Positions 4,483 through 35,081 of a DNA stretch of 64,000 nt are shown in pieces (position 1 is the stretch's first letter; each line of letters begins with the position of its first letter). Both the position numbers and the translations under genes were made by a program. Under the pieces are notes generated by a model. The model ran no database searches. It was given only the letters and a program-made list of their open reading frames with translations, and was not told where the DNA came from. The stretch is from Bacillus multifaciens (GTDB lineage: Bacteria > Bacillota > Bacilli > Bacillales > Bacillaceae_G): positions 1-64,000 of the forward strand of contig NZ_JAVBXD010000001.1 of assembly GCF_030756675.1 (NCBI RefSeq). The letters run 5' to 3'.

Positions 4483-4929
4483 TCATAAACAGAATTTTGC
4501 TAACCGCTCACCCCAAGATGATAATTCCGTCTCTATAAAACCTGCCTTTTGATACGCAAACTTTGCTGCAAGATTTTCAGGATGATAACCAATCATTATA
4601 AGTGGAATATTTGTATCATTCATTCTCCTTATTTCTTCAATAACCAATTTTATAGCATGTATTCCTATTCCTCTCCCTTGGAACCCTTTATCAATCATCA
4701 GTCTGTAAATCCAATAATTATGATCGTCAGGGTCTATTCCAAACATAGTGAAGCCTACCATTTCGTTATCAAGATATATGCCTTTTGCATAGAAGTTGTC
4801 TAGAAACTGCACTTCTGCAATTGAATACAAATTGGAAGCGATAAATGGTTGTTGTTCTTGGTTCACCGATAATTGAATCGCATCTTCCCAGTTACTTTTA
4901 TCGATCGTTTTTAATGATAGATGTTTCAA
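4483..4929 (-). CDS. GNAT N-acetyltransferase (BltD/diamine type)
   Basis: A 148-aa acetyltransferase. The acetyl-CoA loop is visible as GFQGRGIGIHA (Q/R-x-x-G-x-G/A), followed by the beta-5 bulge and the C-terminal ENLAAKFAYQKAGF. The overall pattern resembles spermidine/diamine acetyltransferases such as BltD, so a polyamine substrate is possible. A longer frame runs upstream to 5046, but AAGGAG seven bases before a TTG at 4929 (LKHLSLKTID) fits the family's N-terminus, so I use the TTG start. It converges on the PepSY gene. Confidence 0.82.
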   Translation of the reverse strand: MKHLSLKTIDKSNWEDAIQLSVNQEQQPFIASNLYSIAEVQFLDNFYAKGIYLDNEMVGFTMFGIDPDDHNYWIYRLMIDKGFQGRGIGIHAIKLVIEEIRRMNDTNIPLIMIGYHPENLAAKFAYQKAGFIETELSSWGERLAKFCL

Positions 4930-5032
4930 TATAACTCTCCTTATTTTATTAACAATGATTGCAAAAGACCAAATCGAATCGTGATCTGGTCTGCTAATTC
5001 GTATACAATTTACAGTGTTCCTGCACCTGTTG

Positions 5033-6184
5033 TTATATTCTTTCAATAATTGTCGCCGTTGACATCCCGTGTCCGATGCAAATTGTAAGTAAGCCGTATT
5101 TTCCGTTTCTTCTTTCTAATTCATGAAGCAGAGATGTCATCAATTTCACACCTGTTGCTCCGAGCGGATGTCCTAATGCGATAGCACCGCCGTTCACATT
5201 TACTTTATGTAAATCAGCCTCCAGTTCTTTTTGCCACGCCAACACGACAGAAGCAAATGCTTCGTTAATTTCGATTACGTCCATATCATGAATTGTTAAG
5301 TTTGCTTTTTGCAATACTTTTTTCGTTGCTGGAATGACGCCGTCTAGCATCATTGTAGGATCTGAACCAACTACAACTTGATTCACAATCCGCGCCCGTG
5401 CTTTAAGCCCTAACTCTTTTGCTTTTTCACTATCCATTAACAACATGGCTGCTGCTCCGTCACTAATTTGACTCGCATTCCCCGCTGTAATCGATCCATT
5501 CTCTTTAAACACCGTCTTTAAATTTGCTAGCGCTTCAAGAGAAGTATCTGCACGCGGTCCTTCATCATTTGTAACAAGTATTGCATTTCCTTCTTTATCG
5601 ATCCCATTTACTGGGACAATTTCACGTTTAAAGTATCCTGCTTCTATTGCCTGTAGTGCGCGCTGATGACTTTCATATGCATAGTTATCTAGCTGTTCTC
5701 TTGTAATTCCATATTTTTCAGCAATCATTTCTGCCGATACACCTTGATGGACAATTTCATATTTTTCATGAAGACTACTTGGAATTGTATTTGCATTGCC
5801 ATCACTTAAAATTGGTACTTTCGTCATATGCTCAACACCAGTAGCAATGGTAATATCCATATCACCAGATTTAATCTCTTGCGCTGCAAAATGAATTGCT
5901 TGTTGTCCCGAACCGCAAAGACGGTTAATTGTTACAGCAGGAACAGTAATAGGAAAATCCGCTTCTAAAGCAGCAAGTCTCCCAATATTAAAACCTTGCT
6001 CCGCGATTGGTGTCACACAGCCCATGACAATATCCTCTACCATACCTTTTTCGATATCGGCACGCTTTATTACTTCATTCAGCGCCACTGCTGCAAGTTG
6101 CACAGGATGGAGTTCGCGAAATGCCCCATTTCTTTTTCCAACTGGCGTACGTACTGCTTCAACAATTACAACTTCTCTACTCAT
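5033..6184 (-). CDS. Acetyl-CoA C-acyltransferase (thiolase)
   Basis: A 383-aa thiolase of degradative type. The nucleophilic cysteine is in RLCGSGQQAIH (about residue 88), with the catalytic motifs INEAF, GHPLGATG and CIGHGMS near the C-terminus. It cleaves 3-ketoacyl-CoA with CoA, or condenses acetyl-CoA. Its ATG overlaps the end of the 3-hydroxyacyl-CoA dehydrogenase gene by 4 bp (ATGA). It is the last gene of the operon ligase - dehydrogenase - hydroxyacyl dehydrogenase - thiolase, comparable to the mmg-type beta-oxidation operons. Confidence 0.92.
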   Translation of the reverse strand: MSREVVIVEAVRTPVGKRNGAFRELHPVQLAAVALNEVIKRADIEKGMVEDIVMGCVTPIAEQGFNIGRLAALEADFPITVPAVTINRLCGSGQQAIHFAAQEIKSGDMDITIATGVEHMTKVPILSDGNANTIPSSLHEKYEIVHQGVSAEMIAEKYGITREQLDNYAYESHQRALQAIEAGYFKREIVPVNGIDKEGNAILVTNDEGPRADTSLEALANLKTVFKENGSITAGNASQISDGAAAMLLMDSEKAKELGLKARARIVNQVVVGSDPTMMLDGVIPATKKVLQKANLTIHDMDVIEINEAFASVVLAWQKELEADLHKVNVNGGAIALGHPLGATGVKLMTSLLHELERRNGKYGLLTICIGHGMSTATIIERI

Positions 6185-31637: not shown

Positions 31638-31666
31638 ATACACATTCTCTCTTTTCACATAAAGTA
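31638..31666 (+). promoter_or_regulatory. SigE/SigK-like promoter of the low-complexity/protease cassette
   Basis: CATAAAGTA (31658-31666) fits the mother-cell -10 (CATANNNTA), and AC at 31640-31641 (within ATAC) lies 16 bp upstream, matching a SigK spacing; ATA at 31638-31640 also fits SigE with 17 bp. It ends about 40 bp before the first start codon. No vegetative -35/-10 pair is seen in this 300-bp gap. Confidence 0.55.
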
Positions 31667-31708
31667 TGGTATAGACATTTTCTGTAGTTATTAAAGGAGA
31701 GGATTCTG

Positions 31709-32179
31709 TTGTCTTATTATTATTATGATCGCTGCCGAAGAAGAATCCAGTATGATCAACCTGATCAATCTGATCAATCTGAATCACAAGAAGAACATAC
31801 AAAGAAGCATACACATAATCATAACGTTGCTCAGATTTCAGATAGTGGAAATTCTCAGGTGAATTTAAACGTAGACTCTGATATAGATACTGATACAACT
31901 GCTACTAATCAGCAGTCTACTGATGTAGGACAGGGACAGGGACAGGAGCTGGCACAAGGTCAAGGTCAGGCACAAGGTCAAGGTCAATTGAATACAGATG
32001 TTACAAACCAATTATTAACGGCCCTGCTCCCATTTTTAACAAACGTTTTAAATAACGCTACTCAATCCTCGCAAAATAATCTAAATCAAAATAATCAAAA
32101 TCTAAATCAAAATCAAAATCATAATCATAATCTAAATCATAATCTAAATCAAAATAATCAAAAAGGAATAGGCTACTAA
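31709..32179 (+). CDS. Low-complexity Gln/Asn/His-rich protein, candidate spore-surface protein
   Basis: A 156-aa protein starting with TTG at 31709 (RBS AAAGGAGAGG). Layout: Tyr/Arg-rich start MSYYYYDRCRRR, an acidic/His stretch (KKHTHNHN), the motif ISDSGNSQVNLNVDSDID, a GQ repeat (about residues 74-95: GQGQGQ, AQGQGQAQGQGQ), a short hydrophobic amphipathic helix (LLTALLPFLTNVLNNA), and an Asn-Gln-His repeat tail (about 116-152). Composition and promoter resemble spore coat or exosporium proteins. No known family. The ISxSGNSxVN motif recurs in the next protein. Confidence 0.72.
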   Translation: MSYYYYDRCRRRIQYDQPDQSDQSESQEEHTKKHTHNHNVAQISDSGNSQVNLNVDSDIDTDTTATNQQSTDVGQGQGQELAQGQGQAQGQGQLNTDVTNQLLTALLPFLTNVLNNATQSSQNNLNQNNQNLNQNQNHNHNLNHNLNQNNQKGIGY

Positions 32180-32211
32180 ACAGTAGCCTATTTTGGTAAG
32201 GAGGATTAATT

Positions 32212-32508
32212 ATGATGCGGCGAAATAGCTCCAATATTTCAAACAGCGGAAACTCTAATGTGAATATAACCGTAAACGTCGATACAAGCTCTATTGCCTA
32301 TGCCATGATGTGTTATTGGCATACGAGCGGGATGATTACGGATGAACAGTTCACCCATATGATAACTAATTTTAACAGTTTACTAAACAAAGAGGACGCT
32401 ATCCTTCCGCAGCTCTTATCAAATAAAGAATATTCTCCGTACGTGATTCGGCAAAAAAACAATGTAAATACATTAAAAACATTTATCCCTCCTTTTTTTA
32501 ATCGTTAA
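32212..32508 (+). CDS. Unknown protein sharing the ISxSGNSxVN motif
   Basis: A 98-aa protein 33 bp after the previous gene, with RBS AAGGAGG. Its N-terminus SNISNSGNSNVNITVNVD parallels ISDSGNSQVNLNVDSD of the upstream protein, so the two share a module or common origin. The rest (AMMCYWHTSGMITDEQFTHMITNFNSLL) is helical and contains one Cys. No export signal, no recognised family. It probably acts with its two neighbours. Confidence 0.72.
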   Translation: MMRRNSSNISNSGNSNVNITVNVDTSSIAYAMMCYWHTSGMITDEQFTHMITNFNSLLNKEDAILPQLLSNKEYSPYVIRQKNNVNTLKTFIPPFFNR

Positions 32509-32551
32509 GTATATTTCGATAGAAAAATCCATAATATTTGAGGTGTCTCCT

Positions 32552-33169
32552 ATGTATCCTTACATTAATATATGTATTTGCACTACTCCTGGATCTCATA
32601 TTGACAACGACCGCATTGCTAGGGATATTGCAATTGCTGAATACATTTGGCATCCTATCATATTTAAAATTAAAGATGTCAGTGTTCTAGATGAACTATA
32701 TCGTTTTCATGATGGTGAAATTAGTTACGTATCTTCGTTAAAATCACAACCAAAGTTGGCCTCTTTATTTGCTAAATGTTCTGAGCATGCGTCGCAATGC
32801 GATATTTATATTTGTTATATTGGCAGTGATTATTTTCAAGAACACTCTGTAATCGCTTGTGCCTATTCCATATCAATTCGTAATCAAATTAAAGGTTACA
32901 TTGTATTAACAAACTCAGCTTCAGCTTCGAAGAACATATACACACTTGCCCACGAAATCGGTCACATTTTATTCACACGCCGCGTACAAGATAAGCTTAC
33001 AAATGCTGATCCTGAATGTCCAAACGGCTCCGAGCACCATCCTTCTCCTACGAATCTTATGCACTACATCATTCCTACCCCTCATAAATCACAAATAGAT
33101 TCCTTATTAACAAATACCCAAAGAGAATTATCTTTACAAAGCCCTTTATTGCGTAAAGAAAAAAAATAA
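32552..33169 (+). CDS. HExxH zinc metalloprotease-like protein
   Basis: A 205-aa protein. I place the start at ATG 32552 with GAGGTG at 32540-32545; a GTG nine bases earlier is less well placed. Residues 132-142 read LAHEIGHILFT, a zincin HExxH site (His134, Glu135, His138), and NLMHY at 168-172 looks like a metzincin Met-turn; a candidate third ligand lies between them (EHHP, 161-164). No signal peptide. The first 120 residues fit no family I know. Third gene of the cassette, likely cotranscribed. Confidence 0.75.
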   Translation: MYPYINICICTTPGSHIDNDRIARDIAIAEYIWHPIIFKIKDVSVLDELYRFHDGEISYVSSLKSQPKLASLFAKCSEHASQCDIYICYIGSDYFQEHSVIACAYSISIRNQIKGYIVLTNSASASKNIYTLAHEIGHILFTRRVQDKLTNADPECPNGSEHHPSPTNLMHYIIPTPHKSQIDSLLTNTQRELSLQSPLLRKEKK

Positions 33170-33184
33170 ACGCTGTAGTTACGT

Positions 33185-33922
33185 CTACTTTTTATCTTTA
33201 AAATAGAAACATAAAATAAGAAAAGCTATTCCCATTAACCCAGGAATTCCCCAATATAAATTTCTATCTCTTAATTGATCAAAAAGAAACGGCGCAAGAA
33301 TCATAACAATTAATATAAACAATCCACTCCAACCAATAAAGCGAATATTAATAATAGCAGCCAAAACAAACAACGTGATTCCAATGATATATCGCAACTG
33401 CCCAGCAATTTCAAATAACGTTGTCCCGTACCATTCATTAGAAAACATAAGGGTAAGAGATAATAATATAGGTGTTATAGCCATAATCGTTAATACTATA
33501 TTTCGGTTCCATTTATTATTTTGAAAAAGCATGTTTCGTGCAAATAACACATTACCTATAAGTATGAAACATACAATAAGCGGATAGCCAATGAAACTAA
33601 TAACAGATACTTTGTAAGGCTCATTCAAATTTCGAAATAATAAATCTGGAATTGTCCAATATGCGGTTACACTCATAATGAAAGTTACCAACAAAGCAAA
33701 ATTTCTCTTCCTATCTATGTCCATTTCTCTTGCTAATTCATCTGCATATTGCTTTGGAGAACCTCCGAAAATATCGATTACTGTTTTCCCTTGCTGTTCT
33801 CCTTCTATTAAATGAAGCTCGGCGTCTTCTAAAAAAGATTTTATATCTTCTTCTTTTATTCCCTTTACCGTTAAATACGCTCCTGTATCTTCTAGAAACT
33901 GCTGTGATTCCCTTGAAAGCAC
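33185..33922 (-). CDS. HAAS-domain membrane protein
   Basis: About 245 aa. The N-terminal HAAS/DUF1700-like cytoplasmic domain (about 1-70) has KGIKEEDIKSFLEDAELHLIEGE and SPKQYADELAREM. It is followed by six hydrophobic helices. The start is probably GTG 33922 (RBS GGGAGGG), giving an N-terminus colinear with its paralogue next door. HAAS proteins commonly pair with PadR regulators and are thought to sense or transport envelope-active compounds. Last gene of padR-HAAS-HAAS. Confidence 0.8.
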   Translation of the reverse strand: MLSRESQQFLEDTGAYLTVKGIKEEDIKSFLEDAELHLIEGEQQGKTVIDIFGGSPKQYADELAREMDIDRKRNFALLVTFIMSVTAYWTIPDLLFRNLNEPYKVSVISFIGYPLIVCFILIGNVLFARNMLFQNNKWNRNIVLTIMAITPILLSLTLMFSNEWYGTTLFEIAGQLRYIIGITLFVLAAIINIRFIGWSGLFILIVMILAPFLFDQLRDRNLYWGIPGLMGIAFLILCFYFKDKK

Positions 33923-33942
33923 CTTACTCCCTCCCATCTTAA

Positions 33943-34704
33943 CTATCTTTGCACAATGTTTTGACGTTTAGAATCCCACATCATAAGCAGTACTAAGCTT
34001 CCATACGACACAATCGGCTCTAAATTTCCCCATCCCGTATTATTAATTTTAAAATATTCAAATACAAACATGATAAAAAGCAAAACAAATAATGTAAGTA
34101 CCCCCATCCAGCTATTTAAACGAAAATTAATTATTATAGCTGCTGCAAATAATAAAAAACCAAGAATATAACTTTGAGTCGAGGTTAAAGAGAAAAACGG
34201 TGTACCATACTGTTTATTAAGTAGCATTAATCCAACAAGTAAAACCATTGGAATGACAGCCGTTACTACATATATAATAGAAAACTCTCTCAATTTACTT
34301 TGAAAACTGGAGCTACGAAAAGCAAAAATCATCCCTGCTATCATCAAGAATAAAACGATAGGATAGCCAATTAAATTAATAAGTGATACAGTGAATGGTT
34401 TCCCTGCATTTCGAAATACAAGTTCTGGAATCAACCAATAAGCTGCTGTTGCAATCACGAAAGAAATAAGTAAATTCCAATTTTCTTTCTTATCAACTTC
34501 CATCTCTTTAGCCAATTCTTCCGCATATTCTTTCGGAGAATCCCCAAAAATATCTATTACCGTCTTTCCTTCTTTTTCTCCTTCTATTAAATGAAGCTCG
34601 GCATCTTCTATAAAGTTATTTACATCTTCTTCCTTTATTCCTTTTGTTAATAAATACACTTTCATATCAACTAAAAATTTTTCTCCTTCTTTAGAAACTT
34701 GCAT
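33943..34704 (-). CDS. HAAS-domain membrane protein, paralogue
   Basis: A 253-aa protein with the same plan as its neighbour: KGIKEEDVNNFIEDAELHLIEGE and SPKEYAEELAKEM near the N-terminus, then six membrane helices. The pair arose by tandem duplication and has diverged most in the membrane part. It lies 41 bp downstream of the PadR gene and is presumably controlled by it. RBS GGGGGGAATC. Confidence 0.82.
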   Translation of the reverse strand: MQVSKEGEKFLVDMKVYLLTKGIKEEDVNNFIEDAELHLIEGEKEGKTVIDIFGDSPKEYAEELAKEMEVDKKENWNLLISFVIATAAYWLIPELVFRNAGKPFTVSLINLIGYPIVLFLMIAGMIFAFRSSSFQSKLREFSIIYVVTAVIPMVLLVGLMLLNKQYGTPFFSLTSTQSYILGFLLFAAAIIINFRLNSWMGVLTLFVLLFIMFVFEYFKINNTGWGNLEPIVSYGSLVLLMMWDSKRQNIVQR

Positions 34705-34745
34705 GTGATTCCCCCCATTTTTGATTTCCTTTCATCACGTCAGCA

Positions 34746-35081
34746 TTATCGTTTCCTTCCTTTTCCCTCCAACAAGCGCTGTATACTACTTTGCATTGCT
34801 TCCCACCGTTCCATGAAATCATCTAGTGCATCTTCACCTTTTTCTGTTAATGTGTAATATTTTCGCTTTGGACCAGATGGCGATTCCTTCATCGTACTTG
34901 TAATCAATCCTTCTTTTTGCATGCGAATTAATAGCGGATAAATACTTCCTTCACTTGCCATTGTAAAACCATACTGTGCCAGTTTTTCACTCATTTCATA
35001 TCCGTATATTTCTCCTTCAGAAATAATAGCAAGTAAGCATCCTTCCAAAATACCTTTTAGCATTTGACTCGTCGACATCAT
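34746..35081 (-). CDS. PadR-family transcriptional repressor
   Basis: A 111-aa PadR regulator. The winged HTH is LKGILEGCLLAIISEGEIYGYEM...GSIYPLLIRMQKEGLI, with the wing GPKRKYYTLTEKGEDAL and a C-terminal dimerisation helix. It heads the padR-HAAS-HAAS cluster. Three TATyTTG-N-CAA-type operator copies lie directly upstream, fitting autoregulation. Effector unknown; PadR proteins often respond to phenolics or antimicrobials. Confidence 0.9.
   Translation of the reverse strand: MMSTSQMLKGILEGCLLAIISEGEIYGYEMSEKLAQYGFTMASEGSIYPLLIRMQKEGLITSTMKESPSGPKRKYYTLTEKGEDALDDFMERWEAMQSSIQRLLEGKGRKR

Follow-up and report, generated by a model that had tools for sequence, protein, structure and literature searches.

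The outer spore layers are products of late mother-cell genes, and only a few proteases that shape these layers are known; the coat-processing protease of sporulation is YabG. Sections of the report on Bacillus thuringiensis describe a SigK box, CAC-N16-CATATGTTA, for bclA and similar boxes for other exosporium genes (PMC4750369). According to the sections of PMC4674009 considered here, Priestia megaterium strains without an exosporium lack the plasmids pBM600 and pBM500, bxpB is located on pBM600, room is left for a contribution of pBM500, and identifying the essential plasmid-encoded parts of this exosporium is a challenge for the future. Here we describe a three-gene locus in a 64,000-nucleotide stretch of Bacillus multifaciens DNA (contig NZ_JAVBXD010000001.1, positions 1 to 64,000; ‘the window’), which probably represents a new metzincin-like variant within a late mother-cell operon.

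The locus comprises gene 1 (31709–32179; TTG start, 156 amino acids), gene 2 (32212–32508; ATG start, 98 amino acids, ribosome-binding site AAGGAGG) and gene 3 (32552–33169; 205 amino acids, a putative leaderless metzincin-like protease), all co-directional on the forward strand and all preceded by ribosome-binding sites. The gaps are 32 and 43 bp, the tight spacing that the initial annotation had described, the latter figure assuming that gene 3 opens at ATG 32552. While the open reading frame (ORF) list starts this gene at GTG 32543, that GTG sits within the GAGGTG ribosome-binding site, and the ATG is thus the likely start. A SigK-type box, AC-N16-CATAAAGTA, is located on the forward strand at 31640–31666 and ends 42 nt upstream of gene 1: read against the SigK consensus, ACACATTCTCTCTTTTCACATAAAGTA is a perfect AC-N16-CATANNNTA. 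Since such strings are not rare as such (9 in the 64 kb as compared to 5.25 expected under a first-order Markov model), the evidence lies in the position and orientation of the box. A loose SigE pattern also matches at 31638–31665, so SigE may be an alternative, and sigma-70-like sites between 31000 and 33700 occur at the chance level (15 versus 13.7 expected; the best, 32601–32629, lies within gene 3). The promoter fits SigE or SigK, as had been proposed from the sequence.

The same initial annotation took the third protein for a zincin with a possible Met-turn on the strength of LAHEIGHILFT and NLMHY. Protein 3 indeed carries LAHEIGHILF and NLMHY, and comparison with eight relatives (loci L001–L008; nine sequences with the window) makes the Met-turn probable. 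All nine contain the signature HExxH, 23–37 residues, His, x5, N-x-M, with both the His and the Met eight residues after it invariant, a spacing which is that of the matrixins. Judging from the alignment, the candidate zinc ligands of protein 3 are H134, H138 and, as a proposed third, H162; C-terminal of HExxH, no other His, Asp or Glu is invariant among the nine. E135 would be the catalytic base and M170 the proposed Met-turn residue. The compact metzincin motif HExxHxxGxxH/D is absent: Phe or Leu replaces its Gly, no His or Asp is conserved there, and the third zinc ligand would lie behind an inserted loop.

Database searches with the three proteins, which had been suggested as a check, gave no Pfam or NCBIfam match above cut-off for any of them, and only weak PHROG matches (best E 0.00046). 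A search with the nine-row family profile points to metzincins, as do, for the most part, the 50 fold matches listed per search with the weak model of protein 3 (a single-sequence model with a predicted local distance difference test score, pLDDT, of 42 was left out of the fold search). In the model HExxH falls in a helix spanning residues 125–148, while the stretch that includes the proposed third His and the Met, residues 147–186, has pLDDT below 50. Taken together, profile and model suggest that protein 3 is a metzincin-like protease variant of a previously unnamed lineage; we say ‘metzincin-like’ because the compact motif is missing, although the example of leishmanolysin shows that the clan can accommodate an insert at this site (PMC11957388).

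It is very improbable that protein 3 is instead an IrrE/ImmA-type (M78) regulatory protease with the product of gene 2 as its partner or inhibitor. Matches pulling in this direction are Pfam M78 (E 0.0014, 18.8 bits, below the cut-off of 22), RmrA (2.7e-6) and capP (2.3e-5) in PADLOC, and the NCBIfam spr1629 antitoxin (6.5e-5, well short of its cut-off). The PADLOC search with the three proteins returned two other weak matches. The nine-row profile, when searched against the Protein Data Bank, has matches to CapP (E 0.34) and IrrE (E 0.47) too, and two of the nine members match M78 at E 0.01, the best at 0.0014. However, the M78, spr1629, RmrA and capP matches span only about 26–50 residues around HExxH, no helix-turn-helix family matched gene 3 in the Pfam search, and the fold matches listed are mostly metzincins. 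M78 peptidases, moreover, use a Glu ligand and have no Met-turn, whereas all nine sequences have the invariant His followed by the invariant Met.

A link to sporulation comes from the recurrence of SigK-like boxes upstream of the relatives, which lie on plasmids of Priestia and Peribacillus, on a further bacterial plasmid and on a single viral contig. Requiring an exact CATANNNTA with at least one letter of AC at 16–17 nt, within 110 nt of the start, we found boxes at five of the nine family genes, as compared to 2 of 62 other uncut annotated genes at L001–L006. For the window the box of gene 1 was counted; the start of the L007 gene is unannotated and was set by us, and L007 and L008 supplied no control genes. 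The enrichment holds when the near-copy L005 is removed (4/8 versus 2/54, p 0.0017) and when both L005 and the window are (3/7 versus 2/54, p 0.009). L002–L005 have a common aligned upstream block.

This enrichment also bears on the possibility, which we regard as unlikely, that the locus is an accessory one that evolves fast and lacks a settled function, its SigK-type box and its spore links being coincidental. Such a locus would fit the failure to find relatives of genes 1 and 2, the mere 21–28% identity of the protease to its relatives, and the abundance of SigK-type strings in AT-rich DNA (the 9 versus 5.25 given above). Against it stand the promoter enrichment at family genes, the retention of candidate ligands and Met in nine of nine sequences, and the ribosome-binding sites ahead of all three genes.

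One of the relatives, L002, is on pBM600 itself, the plasmid that also carries two CotX-domain genes, a YjcZ gene and eight genes annotated as glycosyltransferases. Together with the SigK-type box and the repeat-rich tails found within the protease chain in three of the nine sequences (Lys-rich repeats in L004 and L005, a repeat plus Cys-rich tail in L007), this lends support to the spore-associated setting that had been put forward for the locus. The same spore context would also suit a spore-borne cargo, that is, a protease displayed on or stored in the spore surface whose substrates lie outside and are reached after release or germination, with genes 1 and 2 providing the display scaffold rather than the substrates. 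In three of the nine sequences the catalytic domain continues into a repeat tail, which looks like tethering, and the patchy spread over plasmids and one phage-like contig suits niche cargo; no outside substrate, however, is suggested by any result, and hydropathy gives no secretion signal. We rate this explanation as somewhat unlikely, yet as the nearest competitor of a spore-layer role.

Both small proteins are rich in Asn. Protein 1 (17.3% Gln and 17.3% Asn) carries an N-terminal MSYYYYDRCRRR, the shared module, a Gln/Gly stretch and a tail of Asn/Gln/His repeats; protein 2 has 15% Asn. The motif that they had been said to share is present, its ISxSGNSxVN module reading ISDSGNSQVN at residues 43–52 of protein 1 and ISNSGNSNVN at residues 9–18 of protein 2; the two proteins align locally over 27 columns with a score of 57. 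Out of 5000 shuffles of protein 2, not one scored as high against residues 1–75 of protein 1, and 13 did against the whole of protein 1, probably because of its Gln/Asn repeats. At the DNA level, too, about 50 nt align. A kinship of the SGNS module with the CotX/CotV domain (PF07552), which seemed possible by eye, found no support in a shuffle test: against a profile of four pBM600 CotX repeats, the real protein 1 was equalled or outscored by 240 of its 500 shuffles and the real protein 2 by 45 of 500. Relatives of genes 1 and 2 were not found in plasmids and phages (gene 1 being poorly tested, since BLAST masks low-complexity stretches), relatives of gene 2 were not found in viral contigs, and phmmer detected no relative of either protein at L001–L008 (best E 1.1 and 1.5). 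With no relative of either small protein beyond the window, the status of the three genes as a ‘cassette’ rests on this one locus.

As our leading, if still tentative, explanation we favour an operon under late mother-cell (SigK) control whose products form a small set of outer-spore proteins, including a metzincin-like protease. SigK would drive all three genes late in the mother cell; the leaderless, Asn/Gln-rich proteins 1 and 2 would probably be incorporated into the coat or exosporium, or attach to it, via their shared module, and the equally leaderless protease 3 would be deposited on the same layer and trim spore-surface proteins there. We infer the spore location, the catalysis and the substrates; cleavage of proteins 1 and 2, the possible substrates of protein 3, is a reasonable proposal. 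A hairpin (32165–32194, forward strand; −16.3 kcal/mol, z −5.3) covers the stop codon of gene 1, and may act as an attenuator of transcription into genes 2 and 3 or protect the 3′ end of the gene 1 mRNA; placed between genes 1 and 2, it could keep the structural protein more abundant than the enzyme. None of the three proteins has a signal-peptide-like or membrane-like hydrophobic stretch by hydropathy.

Several results weigh against a SigK-driven outer-spore operon. The box rule was fixed only after the boxes had first been inspected, four of the nine family genes (L001, L003, L006 and L008) have no box by this rule, and of 3000 stretches of 200 nt drawn at random from the loci, 7% contain a box with at most one mismatch. 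None of the protease relatives is flanked by genes resembling 1 and 2; L006 has central-metabolism genes around it and L008 has phage terminase genes nearby, and neither adjoins spore genes. The model of protein 3 is of low confidence (pLDDT 49, predicted template modelling score 0.51), and its Foldseek TM-scores are only 0.42–0.45 in the first six rows. The terminator scan reported the hairpin at 32165–32194 for the reverse strand only and not in the forward-strand list. A search by presumed locus numbers found no expression or proteome record of the genes, and in the sections of PMC4674009 considered the role of pBM600 is inseparable from that of pBM500 and no protease gene is named.

As to distribution, viral scans with alignments A1 and A3 found one and the same contig (L009), while scans with the window protein alone, A4 or A5 found none; neither protein 3 nor its L001 relative matched any of 50,697 phage records. 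Two genome-contig scans detected neither the protease nor even its DUF3928 neighbour, and therefore say nothing on the Bacillus cereus group. We also noted several features of the relatives. A block like GGACAAGCATACAAGC, possibly a regulator site, lies upstream of the −10 box in L002 and L003. L004 and L005 have a looser version, and there is one further copy in the part of pBM600 that was searched, near 95472 (L011:47472), ahead of BMQ_RS26890. L007 (LC810154.1, 1–19104) matches itself when shifted by 9666 bases (84% of the positions agree, ungapped), and near 61–796 two ORFs together hold a second copy of the protease region; the record may represent a dimer or result from its assembly. At L006:5767–5875 the open frame extends upstream beyond the annotated start and by eye resembles a charged, Lys/His/Tyr-rich tail, with no usual start codon seen. 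The small P. megaterium plasmid with the L001 relative also carries a collagen-like protein gene (4922–5404) with its own SigK-type box.

Around the window locus itself, Rfam gave no family match, the GC content does not differ notably, and there are no tRNA genes in the window. Downstream, at 33185–35081, two HAAS membrane proteins and a PadR-like regulator are encoded on the opposite strand, a group that resembles the AS-48-induced BC4027–BC4029 group in the sections of PMC2774856 considered; the peptide LHLIEGE, encodable by one primer printed there, occurs in both window HAAS proteins. Going by the order of PadR and membrane-protein genes in that report, we considered that the locus might be BC4024–BC4029 of B. 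cereus ATCC 14579. Two BC4028 primers from the sections of PMC2774856 and one BC4029 primer from those of PMC3506622 are absent from the window at up to three mismatches, and the window is thus at most a divergent relative of that locus.

We found no published account of the three-gene cassette in titles and abstract openings. With several genes behind SigK-type boxes and one on pBM600, the metzincin-like family is a concrete exosporium candidate, and a role there is open to test by a single gene deletion. The locus shares a SigK-type promoter with bclA, bxpB, exsY and other SigK-dependent exosporium genes of the B. cereus group, while its three genes, unlike these, match no named family above cut-off. 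Like YabG, protein 3 is presumed to be a protease active on the forming spore surface; YabG, however, is not a metzincin, and no YabG model is among the gene 3 matches. The predicted order of elements in protein 3, strand-helix-strand-(helix)-strand-strand-strand-HExxH helix and so on to a C-terminal helix, is metzincin-like, and adamalysin/ADAM, fragilysin and snapalysin resemble it in the predicted helix with HExxH and in the conserved Met after the proposed third ligand. Compared with metzincins at large, the family lacks HExxHxxGxxH/D, its third His coming 23–37 residues later, and protein 3 has no signal peptide by hydropathy and no room for a prodomain, being only 205 amino acids long with its first predicted strand at residues 4–11. 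None of the nine members matches Pfam M8 (leishmanolysin, gp63) at E 0.01, a search in which the HMMER filters may miss remote kin; the insert of the protein 3 family is shorter than that of leishmanolysin, the Gly is not kept, and protein 3 has 7 cysteines as compared to the 19 named for M8 in the sections of PMC11957388 considered. Yet leishmanolysin is a metzincin with an insert that follows the HExxH part and precedes the third His (62 residues in Leishmania; PMC11957388), just as we propose for protein 3.
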